A stretch of DNA of 64,000 nucleotides, from positions 310,001-374,000 of the forward strand of contig NZ_BMFQ01000001.1 in assembly GCF_014638915.1 (NCBI RefSeq), given 5' to 3'. The notes under the pieces were generated by a model. The model had not been told where the DNA came from and did not search any database. It saw only the letters and a list, made by a program, of their open reading frames with translations. The position numbers and the translations under genes were made by a program. The stretch is from Xanthomarina arctica (GTDB taxonomy: Bacteria > Bacteroidota > Bacteroidia > Flavobacteriales > Flavobacteriaceae). Positions 6,031 through 26,978 of the stretch are shown piece after piece; within the stretch, counting starts at the first letter, position 1, and every line of letters begins with the position of its first letter.

Positions 6031-8601
6031 ATGAAAAAAATTCTGCTTTTACTACTTTGCTTTTTAAGTGAATTTACTTTTTCACAGAGTTTGGAAGATG
6101 CTATTTATTCAGCCACTGAAAGCTTTATAGCGAATAAAAACATAACATCTTTTGAAACCTTAAAGGAACATGAAACCTTATTTAAAAAACAGGTATCAAC
6201 CAAAGACGAACAATTGGCCTTTGTATTCTTACTATGCAATAAAGCGTATTTTTTAAACGATTTAAATAAATTCACTCCTGCCATTATAGCCTACGAAGAT
6301 GCATGGAAACGTTATAGTAACAACCAACTTGCCAGTATTTCAGATTATGACATTATTGAATACTGTTTAAAACCTCTTGGAAATTTATATACCAAAACCA
6401 ACAACTATACAGATGCTGAAAACACCATCAAACAGTATTTATTTTTAGCGCAAAAAAAGGATAATAATAGGCAATATATTGCAGGTATCATCAACCTTTC
6501 TGTGTTATACCAAACTCGTGGCATGCATCCATCTGTTGTGGATTTAATAAGTCAAACCGAGACTGTTTCAAATATTGAAACCACACAAAAAGAGACATTA
6601 AAAACGCTTAAAACCTCTAGTTTAATTGCTTTAAACGGGACTACTAATTATCATTTAGATCGGGATGATATGTTGTCAAATCCGAAAGGAGCGTATAACA
6701 GATACCAACTAGAATATGAATTGGCATTAAAAAAAGGCGATTATGAAATGGCCTTAAAAAACTTTAATCTTTCAATGCTATTTCAAAATAGAGATTCTCT
6801 AACACACAGAGAACTTGCTAAAAACCATCTCAAAAAAGCCCAATTACACTATTTATTAAGGGATTTTGATGTAGCTAATCAAAGTTTACAATTAGCTTTA
6901 CGTCCTTTAATTCCTGATTTAGAAATAAACATCATTCCTGAAAAATCACATTTATATGCTGAAAATACATTTATAGATATTTTCGACTTAATGGCCAGAT
7001 TACAAATAAATGAAGAAATAGCTTTAGCTTATTACGATTTGAGTTTTTATGTCTCCGAATTATTAATAGAGAGTCTCACATCACAAGAATCGAAAATCAC
7101 GAATCAAGCAAGTAATAGAAAACGCAGTGAAAATTGCATTGAATTACTTTTTGAAAAATATCAAAACAATTCAAATCCTGAAACTTTTACACGAGCCTTG
7201 CATTATGCAGAAACTTATAAGGCATCTGTTTTAAAAGGGGTCATGGACAAAAAATCTTTATTAGAAAAACATCCAAACGACAGTTTGCTACTAAAAGAAC
7301 AAGATCTCCTTAAACAACAAGAACAGTTAACAGATATTTTAATCAAGACGCAATTAGGGTATCAAACAAGAACGAACGATAGTTTAAACAAACAACTTTT
7401 AGATATTAGCATGGGTTTAAAAACCCTTCAACAGCAAATAGAAATTAAATATCCTAAAGAAAGAACCAATTTTGAAATATCAGATATTCAAAAACAACTT
7501 CAATTGGACCAAGCAATTCTTGTGGACTATTTTTATGGACAACATGCTATTTATCAGTTTATAATTTCAGAAAAGAGCACGGATTTTCAAAAGATTGAAT
7601 TAAACGCTGCTTCCAAAAGCGAGATCACCAATTTTATTCATTTATTCGATAATGCATCCGTAATAAATAACAACATTGATGCGTTTTCAGCACAAGCTTT
7701 TAAGATGTATACTTTTTTGAATTTAGATGAAACTTTAACTGCTAAAAACTTGATTATAATACCCGATGGCCTGTTAAATTTTATTCCTTTTGAAGCGCTA
7801 CTAACAGAAAAAACGCAGAGCATGAACTTTTCTACTATGCCCTTTTTAGTAGTCAAACAGCAGGTGGTTTACAATTCAAATGTGCGTTTTTATTTAGAAA
7901 AACCAATGGTATCTATAAATCAAAAAGTATTAGGGGTTTTTCCAGTGTTTAAAAATACAAATCAACCGCTTAGCTATTCTATAGAGGAGGCAAAAGCTTT
8001 AAAAGAAGAAACTGGGGCTACTATTTTTATAGATTCCCAAGCTACAAAAAGTCATTTTATTCAATCGGCCTCAAAATACAATGTGTTACATATATCTACA
8101 CATGCCACAAGTGGGGATTTTAGGAATCCTGCAACTATGGCTTTTTATGATGAGCCCATGCTTTTAAACGAATTTTACAGTTTAAATATCAATCCAAATT
8201 TAGTTGTTTTAAGTGCCTGTGAAACGGGAGTTGGAAAGATCCAAAAAGGCGAAGGTGCCATGAGCATTGCTAGAGGTTTTCAATATGCAGGCGCAAAGAA
8301 CATTTTATTTTCACAATGGCAAATAAATGATGCCTCTACAGCCACCTTAATGACTTATTTTTACAAACAGTATAAAAAAACTGGATCTGCTTCCATAGCT
8401 AACAGACTCTCTAAACTAGATTATTTACAAGACAATTCTATTAGTAACATTAAGAAATCGCCATATTATTGGAGTGCTTTTGTTTATTATGGAACATTAA
8501 GTCCAGAAAAGGAATCCAACCATGGCATTTATTATTTCTTAGGCATTCTGGCTCTCTTAATTATTGTATTTTTATACTATAGAAAACAGAACAGAATATG
8601 A
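6031..8601 (+). CDS. TPR-CHAT domain protein (caspase-like protease), membrane-anchored
   Basis: The 856-residue product has a signal peptide (MKKILLLLLCFLSEFTFSQ), TPR-like helical repeats (about 40-330), a coiled-coil region (about 410-480) and a CHAT domain (about 570-835). The putative catalytic dyad is His691 in HISTHA and Cys730 in LSACETG, and both motifs are intact. A single transmembrane helix follows (about 833-850) with a short basic tail, so the CHAT domain should face the periplasm. CHAT proteases of clan CD cut specific protein substrates after TPR-mediated recognition. The stop overlaps the retropepsin gene by 4 bp. Substrate unknown. Confidence 0.9.
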   Translation: MKKILLLLLCFLSEFTFSQSLEDAIYSATESFIANKNITSFETLKEHETLFKKQVSTKDEQLAFVFLLCNKAYFLNDLNKFTPAIIAYEDAWKRYSNNQLASISDYDIIEYCLKPLGNLYTKTNNYTDAENTIKQYLFLAQKKDNNRQYIAGIINLSVLYQTRGMHPSVVDLISQTETVSNIETTQKETLKTLKTSSLIALNGTTNYHLDRDDMLSNPKGAYNRYQLEYELALKKGDYEMALKNFNLSMLFQNRDSLTHRELAKNHLKKAQLHYLLRDFDVANQSLQLALRPLIPDLEINIIPEKSHLYAENTFIDIFDLMARLQINEEIALAYYDLSFYVSELLIESLTSQESKITNQASNRKRSENCIELLFEKYQNNSNPETFTRALHYAETYKASVLKGVMDKKSLLEKHPNDSLLLKEQDLLKQQEQLTDILIKTQLGYQTRTNDSLNKQLLDISMGLKTLQQQIEIKYPKERTNFEISDIQKQLQLDQAILVDYFYGQHAIYQFIISEKSTDFQKIELNAASKSEITNFIHLFDNASVINNNIDAFSAQAFKMYTFLNLDETLTAKNLIIIPDGLLNFIPFEALLTEKTQSMNFSTMPFLVVKQQVVYNSNVRFYLEKPMVSINQKVLGVFPVFKNTNQPLSYSIEEAKALKEETGATIFIDSQATKSHFIQSASKYNVLHISTHATSGDFRNPATMAFYDEPMLLNEFYSLNINPNLVVLSACETGVGKIQKGEGAMSIARGFQYAGAKNILFSQWQINDASTATLMTYFYKQYKKTGSASIANRLSKLDYLQDNSISNIKKSPYYWSAFVYYGTLSPEKESNHGIYYFLGILALLIIVFLYYRKQNRI

Positions 8602-9056
8602 GTGAGATAGCAAGTTTAAATCTTAAAGACTTTCTTTTAGAAAAGGGTTATACCAAGGTTAAATTGAAATTAACTAGAACCAATCATTTTGAAATCAAGG
8701 CCAGCATTAATGGCGTCAAAGGACTTTTTATTTTGGATACAGGCGCTTCTAGTTCTTGCGTGGGTTTTGAAGCCATAGAAACGTTTAACCTCAAAGCCAA
8801 GGATTCTGAAATTAAGGCTGCTGGCGCCGGAGCAATAGATATGGTCACTCAAATTTCCAATAAGAATACCTTGAAAATAGGAAAGTGGAAAAAAAACAAA
8901 GTAGCTCTTATTCTATTTAATTTAACCCACGTAAATACCGCTTTAGTAAGCCATAATGCACAACCAGTTGATGGTATTATTGGTGCAGATATATTAAAAA
9001 AATCTAAAGCCATTATAGATTATGAAAAGAAATATCTCTATCTAAAACTCCAGTAA
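8598..9056 (+). CDS. Retropepsin-like aspartic protease
   Basis: The 152-residue single-domain protein contains FILDTGASSS with catalytic Asp47 and the downstream GIIGADIL flap-side motif of clan AA proteases. Such proteins act as dimers because each chain carries one Asp-Thr-Gly. No signal peptide is evident, so it is probably cytoplasmic, unlike the CHAT protein. Its ATG overlaps the CHAT stop (ATGA), which indicates translational coupling and a common task. Possible targets are the anti-sigma protein's cytoplasmic part or the CHAT tail; that is inference only. Confidence 0.87.
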   Translation: MSEIASLNLKDFLLEKGYTKVKLKLTRTNHFEIKASINGVKGLFILDTGASSSCVGFEAIETFNLKAKDSEIKAAGAGAIDMVTQISNKNTLKIGKWKKNKVALILFNLTHVNTALVSHNAQPVDGIIGADILKKSKAIIDYEKKYLYLKLQ

Positions 9057-9119: not shown

Positions 9120-9746
9120 ATGCAAGCTTCCATTATTATAGCAGACGACCATCCATTAATCTTAAGAGGTTTAAACGATTTCTTAATCGAAAAAAAGTAT
9201 AATGTCTTGGCAAGTGCCGTTAATGGTAAAGAAGCTTTCGATCTTATAGAGAGTCATAAACCAGATATTGCTATTTTAGATATCCAAATGCCTTATTTTA
9301 CTGGTTTAGAGATTGCAGAGAAATGTAAGGATCTAGACTATCACACAAAAATAATCCTTATAACTTTTGAGAAAGATGAAACTATATATAAACAGGCCAA
9401 AAACTTAGGTATTTATGGCTATGTATTAAAAGAATTTGCTCTAGAAGAAATTGAACATTGCATTGATAATGTTATTAGAGACATCCCCTATTTTAGTAGA
9501 GAATTACTTTCTTCATTAGAAGTGGAAGAAGCACCAGAAGAGCTTGAAACCTTAACTCCAACGGAAATAGAGGTTATAAAATACATTTCAGATAATAAAA
9601 CAGCGAAGGAAATTGGAGATCTCATGTTTACATCCTTTCGTACTGTAGAAAAACATAAAAGTAATATCAATAAAAAACTAAACCTTACTCCTACAAAATA
9701 TAGTTTACTATTTTGGGCCAAAGAAAATAAGAACCATTTAATATGA
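9120..9746 (+). CDS. LuxR/NarL-family response regulator, orphan
   Basis: The receiver domain spans residues 1-120, with the acidic pair D9-D10, phosphoacceptor Asp54 in AILDIQMP and the conserved Lys near 109 (VLKEF). A LuxR-type helix-turn-helix is at about 145-205 (LTPTEIEVIKYISDNKTAKEIG, then SFRTVEKHKSNINKKL). No histidine kinase is adjacent, so it is an orphan regulator in this window. It lies 63 bp after the retropepsin gene. An 18-bp perfect palindrome begins 3 bp after its stop codon and recurs 320 bp later, which makes this protein the obvious candidate to bind it. Confidence 0.93.
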   Translation: MQASIIIADDHPLILRGLNDFLIEKKYNVLASAVNGKEAFDLIESHKPDIAILDIQMPYFTGLEIAEKCKDLDYHTKIILITFEKDETIYKQAKNLGIYGYVLKEFALEEIEHCIDNVIRDIPYFSRELLSSLEVEEAPEELETLTPTEIEVIKYISDNKTAKEIGDLMFTSFRTVEKHKSNINKKLNLTPTKYSLLFWAKENKNHLI

Positions 9747-9749
9747 AAT

Positions 9750-9797
9750 ATACGTAGTACTACGTATTGTATGGCATGTTAATTAAGCTGATATTTG
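9750..9797 (+). promoter_or_regulatory. Palindromic operator overlapping a Bacteroidota promoter (copy A)
   Basis: ATACGTAGTACTACGTAT at 9750-9767 is a perfect 18-bp palindrome. Its last base opens a -33 TTG (9767-9769), followed by exactly 20 nt and GATATTTG at 9790-9797, one mismatch from TAnnTTTG. The operator thus sits just upstream of the -33 element, a position suited to activation by a dimeric regulator such as the LuxR-type protein encoded upstream. Confidence 0.75.
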
Positions 9798-9800
9798 TCC

Positions 9801-9870
9801 TGCTATTAATTAGTTCTTAGGGAGAATTAATGAAAGCTCTAAATAAATCTAATTTATTTGGAGCTTTCTT
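9801..9870 (+). ncRNA. Candidate short structured RNA (copy A)
   Basis: The promoter at 9767-9797 should start a transcript near 9801. It opens with TGCTATTAAT and a GGGAG element (9820-9824), then a hairpin of 17 bp with one U-G pair: arms 832-848 and 852-868 past 9000, loop CTA. No convincing ORF is present. The start, the GGGAG element and the terminal hairpin recur in copy B although the stem sequences differ. That pattern suggests two paralogous small RNAs or structured leaders. Confidence 0.5.
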
Positions 9871-10069
9871 CGTTTATAGCTATTTCTAAACCAAAAACCA
9901 AAGAATAATTTTGTAATCCTCCTGTTTCTCAAATTTAACACCTTTCCTACTAGGCTTTTTTTTAAAACTTCCAAAATCTCAAAAAAGCACTGATTTTAAA
10001 GGGTTTATGATATTTTTATTTAGAAGAATACAGAACTAATTTAGAAATTTTATCCAAGTTTTCGTAAAA
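9869..10069. other. AT-rich spacer between the two operator/hairpin units
   Basis: About 200 bp with no ORF of note, no strong hairpin and no promoter I could identify. It contains some A- and T-runs only. It separates two units whose operators are exactly 320 bp apart. Confidence 0.5.
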
Positions 10070-10117
10070 ATACGTAGTACTACGTATTGTTTGGCATGTA
10101 GATTATTAAGATATTTA
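10070..10117 (+). promoter_or_regulatory. Palindromic operator overlapping a Bacteroidota promoter (copy B)
   Basis: The same 18-bp palindrome as in copy A lies at 10070-10087, followed by TTG at 10087-10089, again exactly 20 nt, then GATATTTA at 10110-10117. The stretch TTGGCATGT-like after the TTG is also shared with copy A (TGGCATG). Conservation of both operator and spacing, but not of surrounding sequence, argues for function. Confidence 0.75.
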
Positions 10118-10120
10118 CAG

Positions 10121-10196
10121 TGCTATTAATCAATTACCTTTAAGGGAGTACCGATAAAACTCTGTGTACTAAAAAAGGCACAGGGTTTTATTTCCT
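10121..10196 (+). ncRNA. Candidate short structured RNA (copy B)
   Basis: The predicted transcript opens with TGCTATTAAT like copy A and carries AAGGGAG at 10142-10148. It then forms a 13-bp hairpin with one U-G pair: ATAAAACTCTGTG at 10154-10166 against CACAGGGTTTTAT at 10179-10191, followed by TTCC. It could end here as a small RNA or continue as a structured leader for the 33-residue peptide gene starting 43 bp later. Confidence 0.5.
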
Positions 10197-10238
10197 CTTA
10201 AAATTACTAAAGTCCCAAAAATCTAAAATTTTTAAGTT

Positions 10239-10340
10239 ATGGAAAATGAGTATGATTCTATCAACAAATATTTTGTAATTGGATTAGTTATTGTTGTTGT
10301 AACTGTTATTTCAATCAATATTCTTGTTAATTTTTTTTAG
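10239..10340 (+). CDS. 33-residue single-pass membrane peptide
   Basis: ATG at 10239 opens a 33-codon frame: MENEYDSINKYF, then a hydrophobic stretch (VIGLVIVVVTVISINILV) and NFF before TAG. It has an acidic N-terminus and one predicted membrane helix reaching almost to the C-terminus. It lies downstream of operator copy B and upstream of a clear terminator, so it is probably expressed from that promoter. No homologue is known to me. It could be a membrane regulator or toxin-like peptide, but nothing in the sequence decides this. Confidence 0.55.
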   Translation: MENEYDSINKYFVIGLVIVVVTVISINILVNFF

Positions 10341-10358
10341 TTAGTTATTTTCAAGACA

Positions 10359-10392
10359 AAAGCGCAATCTAAAAAATAGATTGCGCTTTTTT
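10359..10392. terminator. Bidirectional terminator
   Basis: AGCGCAATCT at 10361-10370 pairs with AGATTGCGCT at 10378-10387, with a 7-nt loop. T7 follows on the plus strand, and a shorter T-run on the minus strand serves the convergent sucB gene. Confidence 0.92.
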
Positions 10393-26952: not shown

Positions 26953-26978
26953 AAATCCTGCAATTGCAGGATTTTTTA
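26953..26978 (+). terminator. Rho-independent terminator of aspS
   Basis: AATCCTGCAATTGCAGGATT is a perfect palindrome folding into a stem with a minimal loop, followed by T-run. Confidence 0.88.

Follow-up and report, generated by a model that had tools for sequence, protein, structure and literature searches.

The 64,000-nucleotide stretch of Xanthomarina arctica DNA analysed here (the window) probably carries a self-contained regulator-operator-small RNA cassette, in which a response regulator (RR) activates its own copies of an RNA and these RNAs act in trans. The cassette is real, conserved and apparently undescribed, with a logic of a known kind and an arrangement that is new. In the mechanism that we infer for regulator binding, activation, transcript ends and action in trans, the RR would bind as a dimer to palindromes just behind its own gene and, seated at about −42, would overlap the −33 region and bring about class II activation of transcription. 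Each promoter would then give an RNA of ~75 nt with a conserved 5' part (UGCUAUUAAU), a small GGG-loop hairpin and an intrinsic terminator, and the RNAs would act in trans mainly through an ultraconserved 27-nt core. Other LuxR-type regulators with palindromes of their own would place the same core in the same geometry, and the RR branch would also drive a tiny membrane protein. The anatomy of the units, their spacing and conservation, the association of palindromes with regulators and the convergent neighbours of the copies behind PAS-LuxR genes are all shown at the level of sequence and are laid out below.

The locus and its two units

The palindrome ATACGTAGTACTACGTAT had been reported at 9750 and 10070 and nowhere else in the window. 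This is exact. With three mismatches allowed, the 64 kb hold only the copies at 9750-9767 and 10070-10087, far beyond chance (0.01 matches expected from shuffles, with 0/100 shuffles reaching two). The two window copies are also the only exact TACGTAGTACTACGTA sites in the whole 3.9-Mb genome; a third TACGTA-N4-TACGTA site, at C3:238529 (L205), stands without a −7 box at the right spacing. The succession described for each unit, a TTG, exactly 20 nt, a −7 box, TGCTATTAAT, GGGAG and a hairpin, proved correct to the base (Table 1). TGCTATTAAT lies at 9801 in unit 1 and at 10121 in unit 2, after the −7 boxes, GGGAG occupies 9820-9824 and 10144-10148, and a strong hairpin lies downstream in each. 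The two units share 70-nt blocks that are 80% identical, and small RNA 2, although assigned to class B, is matched by the class A covariance model at E 3.1e-4. The longest perfect palindrome found in the window is the 22-bp AAATCCTGCAATTGCAGGATTT at 26953-26974.

Table 1. Features of the locus, in window coordinates
Feature	Position	Strand	Basis and details
Retropepsin-like aspartic protease gene, syntenic partner of the RR gene	8598..9056	+	Pfam
NarL/FixJ-type response regulator (RR), proposed activator of both units	9120..9746	+	Receiver and LuxR/GerE HTH
Palindromic operator, unit 1 (predicted)	9750..9767	.	Centre 43 nt upstream of the RNA core
Promoter 1 (predicted)	9767..9797	+	Sequence; −7 box offset; TTG 9767-9769, 20 nt, GATATTTG 9790-9797
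Predicted small RNA 1, class A	9801..9876	+	Exact core match; covariance model E 1.2e-11 (the model contains this sequence)
Parts of small RNA 1		+	Core 9802-9828; hairpin 9811-9829 with UAGGG loop; terminator-like hairpin 9830-9870
Palindromic operator, unit 2 (predicted)	10069..10088	.	20 bp, perfect
Promoter 2 (predicted)	10087..10117	+	Sequence; TTG 10087-10089, 20 nt, GATATTTA 10110-10117
Predicted small RNA 2, class B (GCTATTAATCAATT...AAGGGAG)	10121..10197	+	Terminator-like hairpin 10153-10192
33-aa single-TM small protein MENEYDSINKYFVIGLVIVVVTVISINILVNFF	10239..10340	+	Loose ORF filter; outer-lineage ORFs
Inverted repeat (14 bp, perfect) separating the small ORF from the odhB-like gene that faces it	10358..10390	.	

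The regulator gene ends at 9746, 3 bp short of the first palindrome, as had been stated. Its product had been called a LuxR-type regulator, which is right as to the LuxR HTH (PF00196, E 6e-11) and falls short in that a receiver domain (PF00072, E 5e-26) is present as well, making it a full response regulator. Residues D9, D10, D54, T82 and K104, presumably those of the phosphorylation site, are invariant among eight orthologues. No histidine kinase was found among the four window genes scanned with Pfam. By eye and from sequence likeness, the retropepsin-like gene adjoins the RR gene in 7/7 relatives listed. On the far side of the array lies a convergent gene for an E2 component of a 2-oxoacid dehydrogenase, which we take to be odhB, and the retropepsin-like gene, the RR gene, the array and the odhB-like gene are kept together across genera. 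The inverted repeat behind the small ORF is likely a shared terminator of this ORF and the odhB-like gene. Directly upstream of the retropepsin-like and RR genes, a gene at 6031-8601 encodes a protein with TPR repeats and a CHAT domain, the latter presumably caspase-like; similar sequence occupies the same position in one relative of the same genus (L011), and what we take to be a TatD-like gene stands there in L009.

Conservation of the units and of the RNA core

The palindrome with its extension, searched with up to 3 mismatches, occurs in 8/60 genomes including the window's own. A joint pattern of palindrome, −7 box and TGCTATTAAT is present in 23/397 genomes of the family, again counting the window's own, against 0 for the control, and the joint-pattern matches listed are all 60 nt long though 11 spacer lengths were allowed. 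Eighty named loci, the best 80 of 560, were fetched with the RR protein. In 51/80, all of them from the Flavobacteriaceae, exact palindromes are present in the scanned zone downstream of the RR gene, at one to six copies per locus. The 29/80 loci without an exact palindrome there include L119, where a palindrome is present outside the scanned zone; as judged by eye, L126 and L131 show no palindrome and L124 has a degenerate one, and the remaining loci mostly have a variant palindrome, TTACGTGTTAACACGTA and the like, or TACGTAGAAGTGCGTA.

A set of 126 units, two from the window and 124 from the 51 loci, was selected by the palindrome alone. The −7 box (A..TTT, positions 41-46) nevertheless lies at one offset in 124/126 of them, and GCTATTA[AG]T begins exactly at position 52 in 85/126 and within five bases of it in 90/126. 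An A-rich run precedes the palindrome across the set and TTG follows it. Palindromes of one locus have matching centres in 75% of pairs, compared with 33% after shuffling, a concordance that duplication or gene conversion can also explain. In the inner lineages the promoters would give rise to short RNAs: a terminator-like hairpin is present within 110 nt of the predicted start in 115/126 units, and the usual predicted RNA is 68-76 nt long (87 units that have both GCTATTA[AG]T near the start and a hairpin).

The most conserved element is the 27-nt RNA core, GCTATTAATTAGTTCTTAGGGAGAATT. Allowing up to 3 mismatches, it is found in 69/299 genomes of the family, the window's own included, with 0 for a reversed-pattern control, and it reaches 57/236 sampled genera. 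Beyond the family it occurs in 0/192 genomes, and a class-wide draw of 198 genomes (6 of the same family and 192 outside) shows it only in the genome of the window. A covariance model built from 39 class A units matches 35/100 family genomes at E<=0.001, the window's own again included. In that genome it recovers units 1 and 2 together with a new site, C2:334842 (E 1.6e-4). That an RNA sequence of 27 nt is kept nearly unchanged across 57 of the 236 sampled genera implies one important interaction partner.

The proposed check for covariation in the hairpins also comes out in favour. Terminator pairs show changes on both sides in 12/14 cases in subgroup A2 and 8/11 in A3, as would be expected of any terminator. 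For the GGG-loop hairpin, which MAFFT alignments align poorly, pairing was for that reason assessed by anchoring on the GGG and recombining the stem halves, with no column counts. Natural stems average 6.16 against 5.30 for recombined halves, and the highest of 500 recombinations reaches 5.72 (n=92). Compensated stems include AAUUCC/GGAAUU (L239), UUUUUUU/AAAAAAA (L253) and UUUUU/GAAAA (L135). The 3' hairpin sequences differ between the RR and PAS groups, and the core stays. As read from the listed sequences, core-type RNAs mostly have one GGG hairpin each and some longer units have two. The last unit of L068, L074, L077, L078, L082, L083, L087 and L091 is of such a longer type, with two GGG-bearing stretches (CAGAGTTATTAAGATTAGAGGGA...TTAATTAGGGTATATAAGGCTCTG); units of this type sit just before the tiny membrane protein and could be true leaders.

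Regulators, operators and alternative readings

Pooling all fetched sequence gives 114 distinct core sites, from related genomes that are not independent of one another. By tblastn, the RR lies upstream of 76/114 (74 with TACG-type palindromes, 2 with degenerate ones and 0 with TACTCA) and a PAS-LuxR protein upstream of 27/114, all with TACTCA-type palindromes. One of the two regulators thus precedes 103/114 sites, and neither is detected by tblastn within 1.3 kb upstream of the other 11/114. The usual palindrome is present without a detected regulator at L182 (rechecked), L270 and L291, and neither palindrome nor regulator was recognised at L252, L259 and L292. At L295 and L298 the neighbouring gene encodes a divergent protein of 257 aa, whose LuxR HTH is clear and whose PAS match is weak, and the palindromes are of TACC..GGTA type. 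At L235 (twice) and L248 the core stands behind a gene pair. One member is a TPR protein that matches HATPase weakly, the other a 221-aa protein that matches the receiver domain weakly, and in the one L235 pair scanned these two matches are below Pfam cut-offs. The palindromes here are of the TTACGG..CCGTAA kind and are followed by the same RNA core; in G012 the arrangement occurs twice, 7 kb apart. The L235 pair was rejected as a LuxR-type system, as it has no LuxR HTH and its Pfam matches are below cut-off except for the TPR repeats.

The palindrome centre lies 43.0 nt from the core in 73/76 TACG matches and 42.5 nt from it in 26/28 TACTCA matches. The exceptions measure 45, 45, 42, 25.5 and 43.5 nt, and eight sites fitted none of the patterns. 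A position of −41.5 to −42.5 is the classical one for class II activation, and the palindrome centre falls there when the start is taken one base before the core.

The new site in the genome of the window belongs to a second cassette (L254:2012-2929; C2, ~334.0-334.9 kb), which consists of a 256-aa PAS-LuxR protein unrelated to the RR, the palindrome TACTCAAATTGAGTA and a core with one mismatch to the 27-nt sequence. Its next gene is lpd-like (E3), and the window's array adjoins the E2 gene; at most other PAS-LuxR sites it is instead a gene that we take to be murF-like that faces the RNA. G306 has the two main cassettes one behind the other at its odhB-like locus, and in each of them the operator and core come after the cassette's own regulator.

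The 33-aa single-TM protein behind unit 2 is a probable further member of the regulon. A loose filter finds a small TM ORF candidate in 79/81 RR loci, some of the candidates being fortuitous ORFs such as those on the opposite strand of odhB, and the small TM protein gives nothing above the Pfam or NCBIfam cut-offs. A single variant palindrome with a −7 box of the same kind stands directly before an ORF for a small single-TM protein of ~40-50 aa in outer lineages (Aequorivita, Aureitalea, Aureisphaera and others), where no RNA was seen. The tiny membrane protein, retained in those lineages, seems to be an earlier output of this regulator. The RR may have controlled a membrane protein before copies of its promoter gave rise to the RNA array. 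As to a type I toxin-antitoxin arrangement, inspection by eye of the 70 nt preceding the small ORFs revealed no shared complementarity. Pairing of the RNA with the small-protein mRNA was rejected: a CCCTAA that could pair with the loop precedes the ORF in a few Xanthomarina-group loci but, again by eye, is absent from the others.

This membrane protein gives rise to the main alternative for the RR loci, namely that their units are structured 5' leaders (attenuators) of its gene and that the sRNA-like ends are products of attenuation. The small ORF of the window does follow unit 2 with no further palindromic promoter between them, much as the outer-lineage promoters run directly into such ORFs. 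A small hydrophobic ORF lies downstream on the same strand at 64/75 TACG core sites, and some loci have a second small TM ORF after unit 1. In addition, the U-tracts behind several hairpins are weak, that of the window's first unit (CTTTCTTCGTTT) among them, and termination may be leaky as a result. The copies behind PAS-LuxR genes nevertheless make the leader reading unlikely as an account of the units. At TACTCA sites a small hydrophobic ORF follows the core in 0/28 cases and a convergent gene in 24/28, and in 21/28 the end of a large convergent ORF is no more than 142 nt away from the core start, which leaves little room for anything beyond the RNA. Over all core sites, the longest ORF of at least 110 aa in the next 75-1300 nt is convergent in 100/114, a count that ignores smaller ORFs. 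Furthermore, unit 1 of the window precedes unit 2 and no gene, and the conservation of the core far exceeds what a leader hairpin needs. The original prediction had offered small RNAs or structured leaders, and both terms keep a place: the core RNA is well supported, on sequence grounds, as free-standing at the PAS-LuxR copies, on which this claim rests because of the 64/75 TACG sites with a same-strand small ORF, and for the same reason unit 2 could also be a leaky leader. The last unit at RR loci may therefore double as one.

If the RNAs act in trans, they may do so as decoys that bind a protein through the GGG loop, like RsmX/Y/Z, with no base pairing. This sub-case of the preferred explanation is a tentative one, and we hold it for somewhat doubtful. 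The loop keeps its GGG as the stem undergoes compensatory changes, as in L239, L253 and L135, and each cell has several copies under LuxR-type regulators. In eight genomes of the genus, moreover, there is no enrichment of TTCTCCCTAA, the 10-mer complement of the core: it matches 45 times, counting RNA genes, and its reversed control 87 times, so simple pairing through it is without support. Against the decoy, CsrA/RsmA (PF02599) has 0 matches in the genome of the window, with 3/14 control genomes positive, E. coli among them, and RRM_1 (PF00076) has 0 as well, with 2/14 controls positive, including a Bacteroides. A decoy would also sit poorly with a core-type RNA that mostly offers a single GGG hairpin and whose 5' GCUAUUAAU is conserved as much as the loop. 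Possible partners of the core are a protein that it decoys, a target reached by an unusual pairing mode, or a novel RNA-binding protein.

Two further readings are highly improbable. Direct repeats, palindromes and a copy number of one to six per locus could suggest a mobile or repetitive DNA element that is here by accident, an idea largely refuted by the fact that 103 of the 114 core sites lie behind one of two regulators with the matching operator type, as well as by the gene order kept across genera. Carriage of the unit by a phage or plasmid was rejected too, as the exact core has no match in viral contigs and no similar plasmid DNA was found. That the transcripts encode a short peptide, with GGGAG as the ribosome site, is rejected. 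An ATG follows GGGAG in the window and its nearest relatives, but one lies within reach after the core at only 25/114 core sites and the reading lengths are scattered. The frame differs between close relatives as judged by eye, and the core has a stop in each of its three frames. A terminator-like hairpin is present at 100/114 core sites.

Known systems and the reach of the cassette

Several near-identical small RNAs under a response regulator are also known as the Qrr RNAs, through which LuxO integrates signals. LuxO is a sigma-54 activator, and the Qrr RNAs need Hfq. The likeness lies in near-identical RNAs under response regulator control and the difference in the single regulator that serves all Qrr copies. 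The logic resembles that of the Gac/Rsm type of system of the Gammaproteobacteria, where GacA drives RsmX/Y/Z and, in the counterpart, UvrY drives CsrB. One account describes control by a response regulator, an upstream activating sequence that is palindromic, and a set of paralogous RNAs with G-rich (GGA) unpaired motifs, and the cassette resembles Gac/Rsm on each of these points (PMC2375449). A palindromic site upstream of the promoter is indeed present here, centred 43 nt upstream of the core. The arrangement differs in that the regulator is encoded directly beside its RNAs, that there are several regulators, each with its own operator and core copy, and that each RNA mostly has one GGG hairpin where Gac/Rsm RNAs have repeated GGA. 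Nor is the RR a GacA/UvrY equivalog by NF007018, for which it scores 65.8 bits against a cut-off of 280, and the CsrA/RsmA target protein of that system was not found in the genome.

Within the same phylum, the FopS/GibS RNAs and RbpB of Bacteroides thetaiotaomicron provide another comparison. These are paralogous RNAs of ~65-70 nt with a conserved 5' part, as here. The FopS copies are expressed from canonical promoters, are not known to have an activator of their own, and have an RRM protein as their binding partner (PMC11697453). By this description they stand apart, with an RRM partner of a kind not found in the genome of the window. The Rfp small RNAs of Flavobacterium psychrophilum come from the same bacterial family, and the predicted pairing region of Rfp18 is its third stem-loop; the main text searched is without the terms LuxR, response regulator or palindrom-, and the Rfp RNAs too are set apart by description (PMC9723704).

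The comparison with Rfam, Flavo-1 included, gives no family match. Between positions 9000 and 10500 of the window there are five sub-threshold matches at E<=1, none of them to Flavo-1 and none near its gathering score, and in six related loci only a tRNA is found. The statement that there is no described equivalent holds insofar as no published description of such a cassette was found in open-access full text; as a statement about the logic it goes too far, since multicopy sRNAs activated by a response regulator are known from Gac/Rsm.

The same core stands beside several regulators with palindromes of their own, and several signals would therefore converge on one RNA output. We tentatively extend this to a plug-in form of signalling in the Flavobacteriaceae, a reading that has somewhat less than an even chance. 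At least three kinds of regulator (the NarL-type RR, the PAS-LuxR protein and the divergent 257-aa LuxR-type protein), and probably the TPR-kinase-like and receiver-like pair as a fourth, would each bring its own operator and core copy, and diverse signals would be fed to a single target, be it an RNA-binding protein, the ribosome or a common set of mRNAs. In this family of bacteria, most of them marine, a single RNA-based control system may thus take its input from separate signals. If true, the result would be a global switch on the lines of Gac/Rsm that does without CsrA and RRM proteins. For the Bacteroidota, the activation of small RNAs and the identity of their binding partners are largely open questions, to which the cassette offers experimental access: it packs regulator, operator and RNA into 1.1 kb, its operator code is exchangeable, and the core recurs under independent regulators.

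The proposed search of related genomes for the palindrome beside such regulators comes out in favour as to the fixed promoter spacing and the identity of the regulator, but not for every copy. Some palindromes are distal, and 18/28 such sites (those of other genomes and the third site of the window's own) have no −7 box at the right place, by a loose test in which chance seems to account for some of the 10 positives (L186, L190). The distal sites were not counted as members of the regulon. Three of them, L191, L197 and L203, each from a different genome, have a palindrome and −7 box before a similar small protein of 60-68 aa (MIYTVSILVSSLVLINFLLLAFSSNK...LSPTGS and relatives), possibly a further regulon member. 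At L202 (G035:C4), overlapping palindromes on both strands lie near large surface-protein-like genes, mostly without the promoter spacing. Finally, TACGTATTACTACTTA occurs in five copies over 37 kb at G000:C3:163281-200043 (L003, L004 and L142-L144), perhaps inside a repeated gene family.
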